NCBI GenBank assembly: GCA_035650475.1
Contig: DASRHP010000012.1
Location: 174,059 to 238,058, forward strand
DNA: 64,000 bases
From: Candidatus Binataceae bacterium
GTDB lineage: Bacteria; Desulfobacterota; Binatia; Binatales; Binataceae
Direction of reading: 5' to 3'
Shown: positions 26,100 to 59,421 of the stretch, piece by piece
Layout: every line of letters begins with the position of its first letter
How positions within the stretch are numbered: position 1 is the first letter of the stretch
Position numbers and translations under genes: made by a program
Notes under the pieces: generated by a model
Seen by the model: the letters and a program-made list of their open reading frames with translations, nothing else
Told to the model about the DNA's origin: nothing
Database searches by the model: none

Positions 26100-27695
26100 A
26101 TGACCACGGCGGCTCGCGAACGCGGTTATCTGGAAATTCCCGAGCGCTTGAACGTCGGGGCGTACGTCATCGATCGCCACGTCGAGGAAGGGCGCGGCGG
26201 GCGTGTGGCCGCGTGGGCGGAGGGCCGCGGCTGGACCTTCGCCGAACTGCGCGAGCAGACAAATCGCTTCGCCAACGCGTTGCGCGCGCTCGGCGTGCGC
26301 CGCGGCGAATGCGTGATGCTGCGGATGGGTACCCGGCTGGAGACGCTGATCGCGCTGGTCGGCGTGATGAAGCTCGGTGCGATTGCGATCCCGACCAGTT
26401 TCCTGTTCCGCGAGCACGAGGTCGAAAAAATCCTGCGCAACAGCGACGCGGTCCTCGCGGTCTCGACGCCCGAGCTGCTCGGCCCGATCGAGGCCGTGTG
26501 CGCGCGCACGCCGGCGCTGCGCCGGCTGATCCTGGTCGGCGCGGAGAGCGGCGCGATCGATAGCCAGCGCACGTTTTCGTGGGAGCGCCTGATGGCCGAC
26601 GCGTCGGACGAATTCACCCCGGCGCCAACCGCGTGCGACGACGTTGCCTTCGTAATCTACACCTCCGGTACCACGGGCGAGCCCAAGGGCGTCCAGCAGG
26701 CCCATCGCTGGCTGCTTGGCACCGGCGATCCGTACAACCGCGCGATGGTGAAGATGCGCCCTGCGGACGTCTGTTACCAGCCGCAAGACTGGTCGTTCAT
26801 CTATGCGCTCGGGTCGGGATGCCTGTATCCGCTGATCGAGGGCGCCGCGATCGTTGTGCCGTACGGCCGCTTCGCATCGGAGCCGACGTTCGAGACGATC
26901 GAGCGCCATCGCGTGACCGTGCTCGCTGCCGTGCCGACCATCTACCGGATGCTGCTCACGGTGCCGGACGCCGAGCGGCGATGGCGGCTCGATTCGCTGC
27001 GCGCCGCCGTCAGCGCCGGCGAGTCGCTGCCCGCCGACACGTTCAATGAATTCCGCCGCCGCTTCGGCGTCACGATCCACGACGGCATCGGCCAGACCGA
27101 AACCCATATCTTCGTCGGCAACCGGATCGGGATGGAGGTCAAGCCGGGCTCGATGGGCCGGCCGCTGCCGGGCTACGAGGTCGCGATCCTCGACGATGCT
27201 GGTCGTCCGCAAAAGCCCGGCGAGCCTGGCCACCTGGTGCTGCGCAACGACCATCCGGGGCTGACCGTAGGCTACCGCAAAGCGGCCGAGCGCTGGGCCG
27301 AGGTCAACCGCGGCTCGTGGTACTACACCCAGGACGTCGCCTACGTCGATGGCGACGGCTACTTCTGGTACGTCTCACGCTCTGACGATTTGATTAAGAG
27401 CCGTGCCTATCTGATCTCGCCCAAGGAAGTTGAATCCGCGCTGCTCGAGCATCCAGCGGTGCTCGAAGCGGCAGTAGTAGGGATTTCGCACCCCCAGATC
27501 GGCGCACGGGTCAAGGGCTTCGTAACCCTGCGCGAGGGATACGCACCGTCGGAGACCCTCGCGGAACAGATCCGCGCCCACGCGCGCAGCGTAATCGCGC
27601 CCTACAAGGTGCCCCATCAGGTCGAATTCATGGCCGAGCTCCCCAAAAGCCCCAACGGCAAGATCCTGCGCCGCGTGCTGCGCGATCGCGGATGA
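26100..27695 (+). CDS. benzoate-CoA-ligase-like acyl/aryl-CoA synthetase
   Basis: A 531-aa ANL-superfamily ligase that activates a carboxylic acid through an acyl-adenylate. AMP motif VIYTSGTTGEPKGVQQAHRW; ATP-binding IHDGIGQTET; hinge and Lys region YVSRSDDLIKSRAYLISPKEVESAL; catalytic Lys in SPNGKILRRVL. The N-terminus (IPERLNVGAYVIDRHVEEGRG and TNRFANALRALGVRRGE) resembles benzoate-CoA ligases and medium-chain acyl-CoA synthetases. If aromatic, it could supply benzoyl-CoA to the box enzymes 8 kb downstream, which otherwise lack a ligase in the window. That link is inference. It overlaps the next gene by four bases. Confidence 0.9.
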   Translation: MTTAARERGYLEIPERLNVGAYVIDRHVEEGRGGRVAAWAEGRGWTFAELREQTNRFANALRALGVRRGECVMLRMGTRLETLIALVGVMKLGAIAIPTSFLFREHEVEKILRNSDAVLAVSTPELLGPIEAVCARTPALRRLILVGAESGAIDSQRTFSWERLMADASDEFTPAPTACDDVAFVIYTSGTTGEPKGVQQAHRWLLGTGDPYNRAMVKMRPADVCYQPQDWSFIYALGSGCLYPLIEGAAIVVPYGRFASEPTFETIERHRVTVLAAVPTIYRMLLTVPDAERRWRLDSLRAAVSAGESLPADTFNEFRRRFGVTIHDGIGQTETHIFVGNRIGMEVKPGSMGRPLPGYEVAILDDAGRPQKPGEPGHLVLRNDHPGLTVGYRKAAERWAEVNRGSWYYTQDVAYVDGDGYFWYVSRSDDLIKSRAYLISPKEVESALLEHPAVLEAAVVGISHPQIGARVKGFVTLREGYAPSETLAEQIRAHARSVIAPYKVPHQVEFMAELPKSPNGKILRRVLRDRG

Positions 27696-30115
27696 CGGCC
27701 ACGCCGGAGCGACCGAGGAGCGGCGGAGAGGGCAGGGAGCGCGACACCTCGATGGGAACCGGCGGCGGCAAGCTGGTGGGAGCGCGCGTGCGGCGCGTCG
27801 AGGACCGCCGCTTCCTGACCGGACGCGCTGCCTACGTTGCCGACTATCTGCCGTCCGGCACGCTGCACGTCGCTTTCGTGCGCTCTGAGTACGCGCACGC
27901 GAGAATCGTCGCGATCGACACAGCGGCGGCGCGCGCAAGCGCCGGCGTCGTCGCGGTCGTCGCTGGCGCCGAGATCGCGCAGCAAGCGCGGCCGATGGTG
28001 GCGGCGTCGACGATGCCCGGCTACAAACTAACGCCGATCCCGGCGCTCGCGGTGGACGTCGTGCGATACGTCGGCGAGGCGGTCGCGGCCGTCGTCGCCC
28101 ACAGCCGCTACCTCGCCGAGGATGCGGCCGAGCGCGTCAGCGTCGAGTATGAACCGCTTGAAGTCGTCAGCGATGCCGAAGCTGCGGCCGACTCGGGCTC
28201 GCCGCTGGTCCACGAACAGGCGGGCACCAACGTGCTGGTCGCTCGCGAGTTCGCGCGCGGCTCGTTCGAGCTGCCGTCCGGCGCCGATCTTATCGTAAAG
28301 GAACGCTTTAGATTTCACCGCGCGGCGGCGATCGCGATCGAGCCGCGCGGATGCGTTGCCGAGTACAATCCGGGTTCAGGCGAACTCACGCTGCATTCGG
28401 CCACCCAGTGCCCTGGAATCCTGCGCAGCGCGCTCGCGCTCCATCTCGACATCCCCGAGCATCTGGTGCGCGTCGTTGCGCGCGACGTCGGCGGCGGCTT
28501 CGGCGCGAAGTCCTCGGTATATCCCGAGGAGGTCGCGGTCGCGGCGCTGGCGCGGATGCTCGGGCGGCCGGTGCGATGGATAAGTGATCGGCGTGAGGAT
28601 CTGCTGACCACGTCGCAGGGATGGGACGAGATTGTTGACGCTGAACTGCAGCTCAAATCTGACGGCACCATCGTCGGCTTGCGCGCGGAGGTTGTGGGCG
28701 ACGTCGGCGCTTATTCGGTCTATCCGTGGACCGCCGTGATCGAACCGATTCAGGTCGTAAGCTTCCTGCCCGGGCCGTACCGGGTGCCGAACTACTATGC
28801 GCGTGCGCGCGCGGTCGCAACAAACAAGGCGCCGACCGGGCCGTATCGCGGCGTGGGGCGACCGCCAGCGGTCTTCGCAATGGAGGCGCTGGTCGAACGC
28901 GCCGCCCGCCGGCTCGGAATCGATCCCGTCGAGCTGCGCATGCGCAACTATGTGCGTGCCGAGGAATTTCCCTACAGGACACCCACCGGCATCGTCTGGG
29001 ACCGCGCCGGATTCGCCGAGTGCATGGCGAAGGCGTGTGCGATGCTCGGCTACGCGGCGGCGCGCGCCGAGCAGCAGCGCGCGCGCGCGGGCGGCCGGCT
29101 GATCGGGATCGGATTTGCCTCCTACGTTGAGCTCACCGGGATCGGTTCGGCGACTCCGGCCGCGCCCGGGATGCCTGTGCCGGCGGGGACCGAAGCGGCG
29201 ACCATCCGAGTCGATCCGTCGGGGACGGTCACCGCGATTTTCGGCGTCGCCTCGCACGGGCAGGGGCTGGAGACGGCGCTCGCGCAGATAGTCGCGGACG
29301 AACTTGAAGTGCCGCTTGAAAACGTGTGCGCGCGCTTCGGCGATACCGCCTCTGCCCCCTACGGCACCGGCAGCTACGCCAGCCGCGGTGCGGTGCTGGG
29401 CGGCGGCGCCGCCACTCTCGCCGCGCGCGCGATCCGTGACAAGGCGCGCCGCATCGCGGCGCATTTACTCGAGACCGATCCTGCCGAACTCGACGCCGGC
29501 GGCGGGGAGCTTTGGGCGCGCGGCGCGATCCGACGGCGGGTAAGCCTGCGCGATATCGCGCAGGCCGCGTACGCCGGCGCCAAACGCCTGCCACGCGGGA
29601 TGGAGCCCGGGCTGGAAACGACGATTTTCTACGACCCATACTACGGCACTGCGACCGCGGCGACGCATGCCGTGATGCTGGAGATCGAGCGCGAGACGTG
29701 CGCGGTGAAGGTCCTGCGCTATGTCGTTGCCGAGGATTGCGGGCGCGTGATCAATCCGCTGATCGTGGACGGCCAGGTGCAGGGCGGCGTCGCGCAGGGG
29801 CTCGGCGCGGCGCTGCTTGAAGAGATGGTCTACGACGACGCCGGTCAGCTGGTCAGCGGTACCCTGATGGATTATATCGCGCCGTCGGCGTCGGAAGTGC
29901 CCGCGGTCGAAGCGCACCATCTGGCTGCCGAGTCGCCGACCACGCTGGGCGGTTTCCGCGGCGTTGGCGAGTCGGGAACGATCGGCGCGCCAGCCGCGAT
30001 TGCCAACGCGATCGCAGACGCGCTTGCGCCACTCGGCGTCGAGCCGGCCGAACTGCCGCTCACGCCCGAGCGCATCTTCCGACTCTGCTTGCGCGCTGGT
30101 GCGCCTGGTTATTGA
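27692..30115 (+). CDS. xanthine-dehydrogenase-family Mo-binding large subunit (second copy)
   Basis: An 807-aa molybdenum large subunit with the standard architecture: GARVRRVEDRRFLTGRAAYVADYLP, RDVGGGFGAKSSVYPEEVA, the active loop TGPYRGVGRPPAVFAMEALV, VASHGQGLETALAQIVADEL, and the catalytic Glu in FRGVGESGTIGAPAAIAN. It is therefore more conventional than the copy at 22298. The ATG at 27692 overlaps the ligase stop (ATGA). An in-frame ATG at 27752 with GGGAG upstream is an alternative start. No FAD or 2Fe-2S partner of its own is encoded next to it. Confidence 0.92.
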   Translation: MTATPERPRSGGEGRERDTSMGTGGGKLVGARVRRVEDRRFLTGRAAYVADYLPSGTLHVAFVRSEYAHARIVAIDTAAARASAGVVAVVAGAEIAQQARPMVAASTMPGYKLTPIPALAVDVVRYVGEAVAAVVAHSRYLAEDAAERVSVEYEPLEVVSDAEAAADSGSPLVHEQAGTNVLVAREFARGSFELPSGADLIVKERFRFHRAAAIAIEPRGCVAEYNPGSGELTLHSATQCPGILRSALALHLDIPEHLVRVVARDVGGGFGAKSSVYPEEVAVAALARMLGRPVRWISDRREDLLTTSQGWDEIVDAELQLKSDGTIVGLRAEVVGDVGAYSVYPWTAVIEPIQVVSFLPGPYRVPNYYARARAVATNKAPTGPYRGVGRPPAVFAMEALVERAARRLGIDPVELRMRNYVRAEEFPYRTPTGIVWDRAGFAECMAKACAMLGYAAARAEQQRARAGGRLIGIGFASYVELTGIGSATPAAPGMPVPAGTEAATIRVDPSGTVTAIFGVASHGQGLETALAQIVADELEVPLENVCARFGDTASAPYGTGSYASRGAVLGGGAATLAARAIRDKARRIAAHLLETDPAELDAGGGELWARGAIRRRVSLRDIAQAAYAGAKRLPRGMEPGLETTIFYDPYYGTATAATHAVMLEIERETCAVKVLRYVVAEDCGRVINPLIVDGQVQGGVAQGLGAALLEEMVYDDAGQLVSGTLMDYIAPSASEVPAVEAHHLAAESPTTLGGFRGVGESGTIGAPAAIANAIADALAPLGVEPAELPLTPERIFRLCLRAGAPGY

Positions 30116-33218: not shown

Positions 33219-34541
33219 TCAATATCCGCCCAGCAACGCCGGGTCTTCGCGCATCGCCGCCTGGCCCGGTCCGATATCGCCAAAGGGGCCGCCGAAGCCG
33301 GGGCCCTTGCGTCCCTTGCGCCCCATCGCGGCTTCGGTGTCGCGTTGCGGACGCGTCGTGCGCGAAAGCTTGAACTGGCGCTCGTACTCGGCGCGCGCCT
33401 GTTTCATGTAGGGCTCGCTGGTGAGCGAAAGCAAAAAGGCCGCGAGATCGTCCTCCTGCTGCTCGCTCAGGCCGAGCGGCACGATTCCGCCGTCAAGGAA
33501 CGGGTTCTGGACCCCGCCCTTGTTATAGTGGTCGAGCGTGTCCCAGATCGTCGCCTGTGAGCCGTCGTGGAAATAAGGCTCGGTGAGATAAAGGTCGCGC
33601 AATCCCATCGTTCTGAACGCGCCAATGTCGTGCGGCTGGCGCGTGACCAGGAAGCGGCCGAGTTCACTGAGGTCGGTCGAGATCGCGAGTTCGTCGATCT
33701 GGCGCTCGCCGCCGCCTTTGGCGAGCAGCGCGAGCGCCTGGCGCGCATGGGGAACGAAACTCGCCGCATGCGCGGAGACGCCAATGTTGTGGAAGCGGTC
33801 GTCGGTGAACAGCGGGCGCGTCGGATTCCATCCGTGGCACGACATGCAGCGTCCCTGGCCGTTGAAGGTCGCCCATCCACGCAGCTGCTGCTCGGTGAGC
33901 GCCTTGCTTTCGCCCGCCATGTAGCGGTCGAAGGGCGAGTCGAAGGAGATCTGCGTGCGTTCGTACACCGCGATCGCGCCGACGATGTTCTGGTAGGTGG
34001 GCGCCTGCTTGAAAGCCTGCTTGAACAGGGGCTGATACTCGGCCAGCGCGCGGACCTTCTCCACCACCGCCTGCTCATTCGGCATCCCCATCTCCACCGG
34101 GTTCAGGATCGGCTGCTTGGCCTGATCCTCGAGCGTCGGCGCGCGTCCGTCCCAGAACTGTTCGATGTTGAACAGGGCGTTGAGCACGGTTGGGGCGTTG
34201 CGCTTGCCGAACTTGCCGTGCACGCCCATCGAGGTCGGCAACTGATCGGTAAAGCCCTTGTCGGGATCGTGACAGCTCGCGCAGGAAACCGTGTTGTCCA
34301 CCGAAAGGCGCGGGTCGAAGAACAGCTTTTTGCCCAGGGCGACCTTAGCCGCCGACTGCGGATTGTCTGCCGGTACGACCCATTTGTAGAGTTGATCGGG
34401 GAATCCAGGTTGGTTGACGCTCTTCGGCTCAGCCGACCGTCCCGCCTTGGGTGCGGGGACGGTGGCTCGTGCCACGAGTCCGCTGCCGATGACTGCGGCC
34501 GCGGCTAGCGCGGTTAGGGTGGCGAAGAACCTCGCAGACAT
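33219..34541 (-). CDS. MauG/cytochrome c peroxidase family dihaem protein
   Basis: A 440-aa periplasmic dihaem protein with a signal peptide (FFATLTALAAAAVIGSGLVARA). Haem sites are CASCH (low-potential side, with LGKKLFFDPRLS before it) and CMSCH. The segment RNAPTVLNALFNIEQFWDGRA is characteristic of the cytochrome c peroxidase/MauG family, and YFHDGSQATIWDTLDHYNKGG follows late. The C-terminus has a glycine- and basic-rich tail not typical of CcpA. It is likely a peroxidase or a protein-oxidising enzyme that receives electrons from a small cytochrome. It begins the leftward set with the phosphoesterase and cytochrome c. Confidence 0.92.
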   Translation of the reverse strand: MSARFFATLTALAAAAVIGSGLVARATVPAPKAGRSAEPKSVNQPGFPDQLYKWVVPADNPQSAAKVALGKKLFFDPRLSVDNTVSCASCHDPDKGFTDQLPTSMGVHGKFGKRNAPTVLNALFNIEQFWDGRAPTLEDQAKQPILNPVEMGMPNEQAVVEKVRALAEYQPLFKQAFKQAPTYQNIVGAIAVYERTQISFDSPFDRYMAGESKALTEQQLRGWATFNGQGRCMSCHGWNPTRPLFTDDRFHNIGVSAHAASFVPHARQALALLAKGGGERQIDELAISTDLSELGRFLVTRQPHDIGAFRTMGLRDLYLTEPYFHDGSQATIWDTLDHYNKGGVQNPFLDGGIVPLGLSEQQEDDLAAFLLSLTSEPYMKQARAEYERQFKLSRTTRPQRDTEAAMGRKGRKGPGFGGPFGDIGPGQAAMREDPALLGGY

Positions 34542-34751: not shown

Positions 34752-36149
<1,398 letters not shown>

Positions 36150-36179: not shown

Positions 36180-37802
36180 TCAGGTGCGCCGGAAATCGAA
36201 CTGCGGACTTTGCGGCTGGCCGTAAAGCCTGAGCGCCCCGTGCTCGCCGACCGCGTTGGGGCGCTGGAAAATCCAGTTCTGCCACGCCGAGAGCCGCCCG
36301 AAAATCCGCGTCTCCATCGTCTCCGGCCCGGCGAAGCGGATGCTCGCCTCCATCGCGGTCAGGGCGTCGGGCGAGAGCGACAGCCGCTCGCTTATCGCAA
36401 GCCGCAGCTCCTCTTCCCAGTCAAGCTCGTCGGGCGCGACGGTGGCGAGCCCCGCTTCCAGCGCCTCGTCGGCGTCGAAGACCCGTGCGGAGGCAAGCGC
36501 GACGGCGTGTGCGGGGTCGGCCACGAAGCGGGTTTGCAGGCGGCTTAGCCCGTTGCTCATCGGCAGCGCGCCCGCATTGAGCGGACCAGTCGCGATTCGC
36601 GCGCCGGCGCCGCTCTTCATGTATATCCGGTCGGCGGCGAGCGCGAGCTCGAGCAGCCCGCCGCCGAAGCACGCGCCGGGTTCGACGAGCGCGAAGAAGC
36701 TCTTGGCGGTGAGGTCGAGCCGCTTGAGCACGCGTTTCATCAGCAGAATCGTTTCGTTGATGAACCAGTCGGCGCGCCGCTCCCACATCCGGCGCTCCAA
36801 TTCGAGCACGCGCTCGAGCTCGCCCTGGGACCTGATCAGTACCAACCCGATCTCTGGATAGTTGCAGCGCAGGCGAAGCAGCGCGTCGTCGATTTCACGG
36901 AACAGCCTGAGTGGATAGAAGTCGGCCCCCAGCGCCGCGGGCTCGGCGGGAATCGCGGGCACGCCCGCCGGCCCTTCAACGATCATTTCGGCGAGGCGCC
37001 GGCTGCGCTCGAGCCGCAGCGTCAGATGGCGGTAGCGGATCTGCTCGTCGCTCTCCGCGGGCGAGAGCGCGTCGAGCGTGATGCCCGCGCGCCCGGCGCG
37101 CGCCGGATCGACGAGCGCCTCGACGCGCGCCTCGACTGCCGCGTCAAAGCGCGAGCGCGGCGCGATCGCATCCACCAATCCCCATTTCACCGCCCGCTCG
37201 CCGCGCACGCCCTCGGCGAGCGTGACGAAGAGGTCGGCGAGGTCGCGCCGCACCTTGCGCTTGTCCACCAGCCGAATCAGCCCGCCCGTGCCCGGCAGCA
37301 CCCCTAGGTAGGGGATCTCGGGCAGGCTCACCGCGGAACGGCGGTCGTCCACCAGGATGAGCTCGTCGCAGGCCAGTGCCAGTTCGTAGCCGCCGCCGCT
37401 GCACGTGCCGTTGAGCGCCGCCAGATAGCGCTGGCCGCTGTGCCGGCTGGCGTCCTCGATTGCAAGCCGGGTCTCGTTGGTGAACTTGCAGAAATTGACC
37501 TTGAAACCGTGCTCGGAGCGAGCGAGCATGAAAATGTTGGCGCCGGCGCAGAACATCCCCTCGGTCGCGCTGCTCAGCGTGACCACGCTGACGCCCGGAT
37601 GCTCGAAGCGCAGGCGCATGACGGCGTCGGCGAGCTCGATATCAACGCCGAGGTCGTAGGAGTTGAGCTTGAGCGCGTAGCCGGGGCGCAGGCCGCCGTT
37701 TTCGTCCACCTTTATCAGCAGGCGGGCGCGGTCGCGCTCGGCCTCGAGCTTCCAATGACGGTAGCGGCACGGCTCGGTCTCGAAACGGATCGGCTCTTCC
37801 AT
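36180..37802 (-). CDS. boxC: benzoyl-CoA-dihydrodiol lyase BoxC
   Basis: A 540-aa crotonase-superfamily protein, near the usual 550 aa of BoxC. It opens the epoxybenzoyl-CoA ring hydrolytically and releases formate, giving 3,4-dehydroadipyl-CoA semialdehyde. The two crotonase-like halves are visible: MLARSEHGFKVNFCKFTNETR, LAALNGTCSGGGYELALACDEL and LPEIPYLGVLPGTGGL (oxyanion-hole glycines), then FFALVEPGACFGGGLLELALAADR and a C-terminal RIFGRLSAWQNWIFQRPNAVG. AGGA precedes the ATG at short spacing. Its promoter lies in the 58-bp gap to boxR and carries TGCA operator sites. Confidence 0.95.
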   Translation of the reverse strand: MEEPIRFETEPCRYRHWKLEAERDRARLLIKVDENGGLRPGYALKLNSYDLGVDIELADAVMRLRFEHPGVSVVTLSSATEGMFCAGANIFMLARSEHGFKVNFCKFTNETRLAIEDASRHSGQRYLAALNGTCSGGGYELALACDELILVDDRRSAVSLPEIPYLGVLPGTGGLIRLVDKRKVRRDLADLFVTLAEGVRGERAVKWGLVDAIAPRSRFDAAVEARVEALVDPARAGRAGITLDALSPAESDEQIRYRHLTLRLERSRRLAEMIVEGPAGVPAIPAEPAALGADFYPLRLFREIDDALLRLRCNYPEIGLVLIRSQGELERVLELERRMWERRADWFINETILLMKRVLKRLDLTAKSFFALVEPGACFGGGLLELALAADRIYMKSGAGARIATGPLNAGALPMSNGLSRLQTRFVADPAHAVALASARVFDADEALEAGLATVAPDELDWEEELRLAISERLSLSPDALTAMEASIRFAGPETMETRIFGRLSAWQNWIFQRPNAVGEHGALRLYGQPQSPQFDFRRT

Positions 37803-37837: not shown

Positions 37838-37877
37838 ATGCGATATAATGCATCTGATGTCAAGCATCATTATGCAT
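37838..37877 (-). promoter_or_regulatory. boxC promoter with two TGCA-type BoxR operator sites
   Basis: On the minus strand a consensus -35 TTGACA occupies 37858-37863, overlapping the boxR stop codon; a weak -10 (CATAGA) follows 17 bp later. Two operator-like units flank it: plus-strand ATGCGATATAATGCAT at 37838-37853 (TGCG-N6-TGCA), and 37863-37877 (AGCA-N6-TGCA). Each has one perfect and one imperfect TGCA half-site spaced one helical turn, and both resemble the palindrome before boxR. BzdR/BoxR repressors in Azoarcus recognise TGCA repeats and release DNA on benzoyl-CoA. Assignment to this BoxR is inference from motif similarity. Confidence 0.65.
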
Positions 37878-38852
37878 GTGGAAGCGTCGCGGGAGCTGCG
37901 CGGCCGCGATGCGTGCGCGGCGGATCGTTGCCAGCAAGTCGCGCAGCGACTGTGCGGGAGTTCTGCCCGCGGTGTCGAGCCGGGCGTCGGCCTTGGCGTA
38001 CAGCGGCTCGCGCTGGGCGAGGATCCGCCGCATGTCGGCCATCGCCTGCGTCGCGCTGACCCCGGCGCTCATCCGGTAGTCGCCCTGGCGCCGCACGCGC
38101 TCCCAGTACTCGCGGGGCGAAGCCTGCAACCAGACCGTGTAGCAGGACTCGAGCAGGCGCTCGAAAGTGGACAGTTCGGAAACGAGGCCGCCGCCCGCCG
38201 CAATCACGACTTGCGCGTGCGCGCGCAGCAGACTCTCGACCGCGCGCCGCTCGTAGCGCCGGTAGGCGGCCTGGCCGAGGAGGTCGAATATCTCGCCGAC
38301 GCTCATCCCCGCGGCGCGCTCGATTTCGCGGCTGAGCTCCACGAAGCGCCAGCCGAGCCGTTTCGCAAGCGCCGCGCCAAGCGTGCTCTTGCCGGCGCCG
38401 CGCAGTCCGATTAGCGCGATTCGCTCGAGCCGTGCCGGTCGTTCGCCGAAGCGCCGCGCGAGCAGCGCGGCAGCCTCGGCCAGTTCGGCGGGCGAGAGCC
38501 GACGCAGGCGCTCGGCCAGCAGTGCGTATTCCACTGGCGGCACCTCTTCGCCGACCAGCTCGGCGAGCGGGACGTCAATTGCGGCAGCGACGCGTCTGAG
38601 CAGCGTGATCGAGAAATTGCCGCATCCGGCTTCGAGCTGGGCAAGATAGCGCTCCGAAACTCCCGAGTCGTGGGCCAGCATCCGGCGCGTCATTCCGTGG
38701 CGTGCGCGCGCGTCGCGCACGCGCGCGCCGAGCAGCTTCAGGAATTGCGCAGGGCCGCCGCCGCGATCGCCGTCCGGATGCGGAGCGGCGCGGCGCGCGG
38801 TGCGCGGCGATGGGCGTCCGTTGCGTTCCCCAACATGTGTCCGTGGATGCAT
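37860..38852 (-). CDS. boxR: BoxR/BzdR-type benzoyl-CoA-responsive repressor
   Basis: A 330-aa regulator in the BzdR/BoxR layout: an XRE-type helix-turn-helix (about 38-100: LGARVRDARARHGMTRRMLA, SGVSERYLAQLEAG) joined to a shikimate-kinase-like domain (about 145-330) with P-loop GLRGAGKST and VVIAAGGGLVSE. In Azoarcus the second domain binds benzoyl-CoA rather than shikimate. The frame is open upstream, but the domain and promoter layout favour the ATG at 38850-38852, which lies inside a 22-bp palindrome and lacks a Shine-Dalgarno. The final codons overlap the boxC promoter. It lies upstream of boxC and boxB on the same strand, so it can repress its own operon. Confidence 0.88.
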   Translation of the reverse strand: MHPRTHVGERNGRPSPRTARRAAPHPDGDRGGGPAQFLKLLGARVRDARARHGMTRRMLAHDSGVSERYLAQLEAGCGNFSITLLRRVAAAIDVPLAELVGEEVPPVEYALLAERLRRLSPAELAEAAALLARRFGERPARLERIALIGLRGAGKSTLGAALAKRLGWRFVELSREIERAAGMSVGEIFDLLGQAAYRRYERRAVESLLRAHAQVVIAAGGGLVSELSTFERLLESCYTVWLQASPREYWERVRRQGDYRMSAGVSATQAMADMRRILAQREPLYAKADARLDTAGRTPAQSLRDLLATIRRARIAAAQLPRRFHMHNDA

Positions 38853-38865
38853 TATAATGCATCCA
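38844..38865. promoter_or_regulatory. 22-bp perfect palindrome, probable BoxR operator
   Basis: The 22 bases are fully self-complementary, with core ATGCATTATAATGCAT at 38847-38862 containing TGCA-N6-TGCA and a TATAAT on both strands. It overlaps the predicted boxR start codon, so a bound repressor would block either promoter opening or elongation. A minus-strand TTGCCG about 16 bp before TATATC, just upstream, could be the boxR promoter and would give an almost leaderless mRNA. Matching, less perfect units occur in the boxC promoter. Autorepression by BoxR is inferred. Confidence 0.7.
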
Positions 38866-38916
38866 GTGATATACGAAATCGCGCCCGGGCGGCAAGAGCG
38901 GACGGAGCCCGACCGC

Positions 38917-58864: not shown

Positions 58865-59421
58865 CGCGGGTCGGCTGGCGAGGGTTGAGCAGCCTTCAGC
58901 GTACCGCCGCTGCACGCGCTCAGGCTTGCGCCAACCACGACGGCTCCGAACAGTCCAAGGCCGAACAGGAAAGCGAAGCCGACGGTCTTCACAAAATAAA
59001 CGCCCGCGATCAGAATTTTGTCAAGGAGCTTGGCGGCGGCGTAGCCCGCCAGGGAGGCGATTCGCTCAGGCGCGATTGCGCTGGTCGCGTCGGCGCCGAC
59101 GCGACCAGCTGCAGCGCAAAGACGGGTCAGCGGCACCAACAGTACAGCGTCGAGCGCAAGTGTCAGAAGCGCGGCCCGGCGTCCGGAGCCTGTCTCGGAA
59201 AAGAACATCCCGACGCGCAGCGCGATCAGCAGGCCGAGTGCGGTGGCCGCGCCCTCCATAAAGTAGAACTCGTATCGGTTCCACCACGCGCCGAAGGCGG
59301 GCGCCGTCATGCGCAGCTCGTAATGGAGCGTGGTCGCATAGCTCAACGTCGAAACGACCCCCACCGCGAACGAGGCGCCGAGGAGGTAGCGCAGAAGTCG
59401 GCGAATTACCGCATTCGGCAT
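58861..59421 (-). CDS. polytopic membrane protein upstream of the PaoA-like gene
   Basis: A 186-aa protein with about four transmembrane helices (LGASFAVGVVSTLSYATTL, FMEGAATALGLLIALRVGMFF, AALLTLALDAVLLVPLTRL, GFAFLFGLGLFGAVVVGASL). No catalytic motif is visible. The stop codon overlaps the next start (ATGA), so it is coupled to the oxidoreductase subunits. It could be a quinone- or cytochrome-linked anchor, but no haem-binding histidine pattern is clear. Family unknown. Confidence 0.72.
   Translation of the reverse strand: MPNAVIRRLLRYLLGASFAVGVVSTLSYATTLHYELRMTAPAFGAWWNRYEFYFMEGAATALGLLIALRVGMFFSETGSGRRAALLTLALDAVLLVPLTRLCAAAGRVGADATSAIAPERIASLAGYAAAKLLDKILIAGVYFVKTVGFAFLFGLGLFGAVVVGASLSACSGGTLKAAQPSPADPR

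Follow-up and report, generated by a model that had tools for sequence, protein, structure and literature searches.

BoxR/BzdR regulators have been described in Betaproteobacteria, for which Suvorova and Gelfand (2019) gave the binding motif ATGCACTATAGTGCAT, of the form TGCA-N6-TGCA (PMC6449761). In Azoarcus, BzdR binds TGCA(N6)TGCA and related palindromes, with an OR1 footprint from -32 to +31 (PMC6678401). Its SK-like domain binds benzoyl-CoA (PMC3602430), which releases the protein (PMC6678401; PMC3602430). In Azoarcus sp. CIB, the target of BzdR is the anaerobic bzd operon, and the regions OR2 and OR3 lie upstream (PMC6678401).

We analyzed a window of 64,000 nucleotides (the whole stretch of DNA examined) from Candidatus Binataceae, in which a perfect 22-bp palindrome, TGGATGCATTATAATGCATCCA (38844 to 38865, no strand assigned), covers the start of a boxR gene. 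As in the betaproteobacterial operators (PMC6449761), a 16-bp TGCA-N6-TGCA palindrome with a TATA centre is present at multiple sites beside boxR and boxCB, and the comparison with known BoxR/BzdR operators, which the initial annotation had proposed, shows that the core fits the published motif ATGCACTATAGTGCAT. The lineage differs, being Candidatus Binataceae, as do positions 6 and 11, which are T/A here and C/G in the betaproteobacterial motif (PMC6449761); T/A at these positions is also common among the alpha- and betaproteobacterial sites that we collected. The sites likewise resemble OR1 to OR3 of the PN promoter of Azoarcus sp. CIB, which are TGCA(N6)TGCA palindromes, and in both cases one operator region appears to lie over the transcription start with others farther off (PMC6678401). 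Unlike OR1 to OR3, the perfect site here coincides with the start of the gene for the regulator itself, and the two degenerate sites stand before boxC.

We interpret the palindrome, with a probability of roughly 0.93, as an autoregulatory BoxR operator through which BoxR represses boxR, while degenerate copies repress boxCB and benzoyl-CoA releases the regulator. Read in this way, it is an ordinary BoxR operator of known kind, in a lineage without an account in the open-access literature searched, where no paper on Binatota with benzoyl-CoA was found. The BoxR circuit and its operator, described for Betaproteobacteria, would thereby be extended to the mostly uncultured Candidatus Binataceae. 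Mechanistically, a BoxR dimer would bind both TGCA half-sites through its N-terminal helix-turn-helix (HTH) and block RNA polymerase at the boxR start region (negative autoregulation), and the two degenerate copies before boxC would let BoxR shut off boxCB. Benzoate would be converted to benzoyl-CoA, which would bind the shikimate-kinase-like C-terminal domain; BoxR carrying benzoyl-CoA would then leave the DNA, and the box genes would be expressed. Dimer binding, repression, and the role of benzoyl-CoA as inducer are carried over by analogy from BzdR/BoxR work in Azoarcus.

The palindrome and the boxR gene

The boxR gene (37860 to 38852, minus strand) encodes 330 amino acids, in which an N-terminal XRE-type HTH (HTH_3, 4.7e-11) is fused to a C-terminal shikimate-kinase-like domain (SKI, 7.9e-35). 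Against NCBIfam NF006015, the BzdR/BoxR-type regulator family, the protein scores 371.9 bits (cut-off, 204). Its HTH is nearly identical in Binataceae, Alphaproteobacteria, and Betaproteobacteria, for example in SGVSERYLAQLE, and the conservation includes SERYLAxLE.

The elements that the initial annotation had described were all reproduced, namely, exact self-complementarity over 22 bases, TGCA-N6-TGCA (38848 to 38861), a central TATAAT, which can be read on either strand, and coverage of the boxR start. TGGATGCATTATAATGCATCCA occurs once in the window, and the bases on its two flanks, G and G, do not pair, so that self-complementarity stops at 22 bp. Read on the minus strand, the centre is TATAATG, and its ATG (38852 to 38850), inside the palindrome, opens the 330-codon frame that ends at 37860.

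The same annotation had called self-complementarity of this length far from chance, a claim that does not hold. Besides this one, the window (GC content, 66.5%) contains two perfect palindromes that reach 22 bp or more, and a palindrome of that size also turned up in 19 of 100 Markov shuffles of the window; length by itself is weak evidence against chance. One of the two others is a 22-mer, GCCTGCGCGATATCGCGCAGGC (29544 to 29565), within the frame 27692 to 30115. The second, a 30-mer, GCTGGTCGCGTCGGCGCCGACGCGACCAGC (59080 to 59109), is longer than the palindrome at boxR, has one copy in the genome, and lies in a region with long frames in both orientations. Relatives keep the inner 16 bp of the boxR palindrome, ATGCATTATAATGCAT (38847 to 38862), the putative functional core, and not the outer TGG/CCA. 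The full length of 22 bp is partly fortuitous, because the bases beyond the inner 16-mer vary among relatives. We judge the palindrome to be real because this core recurs at BoxR loci, rather than by its length.

Conservation and specificity of the core

Among 41 Candidatus Binataceae genomes, 15 encode BoxR, 16 hold the core (at most 2 mismatches), and 13 have both, the core being present in 13 of the 15 BoxR genomes versus 3 of the 26 without BoxR (Fisher p = 2.7e-6). Within the family it stands ahead of boxR, in the interval between boxR and the following gene (usually boxC), or at both places. Two BoxR genomes lack a core match: one (G030) carries sites with 3 mismatches, and in the other (G061, locus L032) the contig ends 15 bases from the gene on its downstream side, and no site was found upstream of boxR. 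For comparison with the three BoxR-less genomes that have a match and the two extra matches in G059, the reversed control gave a match in four genomes. The non-box matches that were inspected each have different, unrelated neighbouring genes, as chance predicts. As a separate observation, the BoxR match in G059 (L033) contains one in-frame TAA according to the search output.

Footprinting over 84 BoxR loci, with a site defined by at most 2 mismatches in TGCA/TATA/TGCA, extends the pattern beyond the family. In Binataceae, 10 of 15 loci have a site upstream of boxR (0.04 expected) and 13 of 14 have one after the gene (0.12 expected). Upstream sites are also present in 12 of 13 alphaproteobacterial loci (0.15 expected) and 49 of 56 betaproteobacterial loci (0.81 expected), these two groups being assigned by record titles, with a few Proteobacteria, Gammaproteobacteria, or Klebsiella titles counted as Betaproteobacteria. 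The core is thus conserved beside boxR orthologues in all three groups, which supports the proposal that the palindrome is a BoxR operator.

In a tree of these loci, the Binataceae BoxR proteins form one fully supported group. The exact 16-mer ATGCATTATAATGCAT lies after boxR in five relatives (L010, L013, L014, L034, and L035), followed by what appears, by eye from the N-terminal codons, to be a boxC-like start. This recurrence makes the earlier suggestion that the palindrome represents the high-affinity consensus of BoxR a fitting, if still putative, one. No site was found before boxR in L013, L014, L032, L034, and L035, which together are one clade, and autoregulation would thus not extend to the whole family.

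When the 3.83-Mb genome was scanned by pattern, the core ATGCATTATAATGCAT with at most 3 mismatches gave four sites, and the reversed-pattern control gave none. Three of the four, all at boxR/boxC (38847, 37838, and 37862), are the three matches in the window, where 0.06 is expected. The fourth, likely a chance match, falls where a PAS/histidine-kinase-like frame (named by eye from sequence) begins. A search for a wider regulon with TGCANTATANTGCA (at most 2 mismatches) found sites with 0 or 1 mismatch solely at boxR and boxC; the remaining eight sites all have 2 mismatches, compared with six in the reversed control. These scans suggest a very small regulon of boxR and boxCB only, and the core may serve as a specific motif that marks BoxR-regulated genes in Candidatus Binataceae.

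The boxR start region and alternative readings

Between the ATG of the palindrome and the HTH there is no other in-frame ATG, GTG, or TTG, and in a relative of the same genus (L006) the start codon likewise lies within the palindrome. Because these two genomes have just one start codon ahead of the HTH, the one within the palindrome, we tentatively suggest that the operator in both probably lies over the start of the transcript. A scan with the sigma-70 consensus did not recognize the boxR promoter, which counts against the operator reading, and neither a strong sigma-70 promoter nor a terminator was found at the palindrome. By eye, a weak promoter-like pair, TTGCCG-N16-TATATC (38868 to 38895, minus strand), can tentatively be picked out, which is absent from the output of the consensus scanner and would start transcription at the operator edge. 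A more speculative idea, to which we give less than even odds, is that in this genus the operator spans the start codon of a nearly leaderless boxR mRNA, one 16-bp element acting as both operator and translation start. If so, repression would act right where the transcript begins, and the BoxR N terminus (Met-His-Pro) would be constrained.

In a variant of the operator reading that we consider unlikely, the TATAAT centre is the -10 box of boxR, for which BoxR competes directly with RNA polymerase, with the actual start of boxR lying at another position. In many relatives, examined by eye, the operator centre does occupy the -10 place, preceded by a -35-like hexamer that begins with TTG and followed by the gene start. 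However, this genome and L006 have no in-frame start ahead of the HTH other than the ATG of the palindrome, so that the transcript cannot begin downstream of that ATG, which argues against this variant.

Two further readings dispense with BoxR. That the self-complementarity arose by chance, or that the palindrome is a coding or translation-start feature with no regulatory role, gains something from the two other palindromes in the window and from the roughly one in five shuffled windows that hold one as long. Yet recurrence of the core is specific to BoxR loci and spans three bacterial groups, and sites before and after boxR have no coding constraint in common, leaving this reading a negligible probability. 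The palindrome could also be the operator of a different regulator at the box locus, given that TGCA-containing palindromes are used by other proteins too, such as CopG (PMC6678401), or the end of a mobile element or repeat. Against the former, site presence follows BoxR across genomes. The latter had been expected to show as the same palindrome at many unrelated loci, whereas the genome scan shows that it is not dispersed. With the inspected non-box matches at mutually different, unrelated genes, as by chance, we regard both possibilities as very improbable.

The boxC side of the locus

Directly downstream of boxR lie the catabolic genes boxC (36180 to 37802, minus strand), for 2,3-epoxybenzoyl-CoA dihydrolase (TIGR03222, 722.4 bits, just above the cut-off of 712.3), and boxB (34752 to 36149, minus strand), for a benzoyl-CoA 2,3-epoxidase subunit (TIGR03225, 676.9 bits; cut-off, 499.1). 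Both are putative BoxR-regulated genes and likely belong to the same operon. The degenerate units that had been noted before boxC as matching the palindrome are confirmed at 37862 to 37877 (AAGCATCATTATGCAT, 3 mismatches), where the unit overlaps the stop codon of boxR, and at 37838 to 37853 (ATGCGATATAATGCAT, 2 mismatches), within the promoter of boxC. Neither is assigned a strand, and their centres are 24 bp apart. The counterpart position of the 37838 to 37853 site is occupied in most relatives. Relative to these two, the site at boxR would be the stronger one.

No candidate electron donor for BoxB emerged from a search of the whole genome for the reductase BoxA (TIGR03224), in which the best score was 29.7 against a cut-off of 459.2 bits. 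A benzoate-CoA-ligase-like gene (26100 to 27695; 374.9 bits, just short of the cut-off of 375.25) is found on the opposite strand about 7 kb beyond boxB, and scans of the window found no BoxR-like site before it. Immediately following boxB, in the same orientation, a gene at 33219 to 34541 encodes a MauG/MbnH-like di-heme protein that scores under the family cut-offs.
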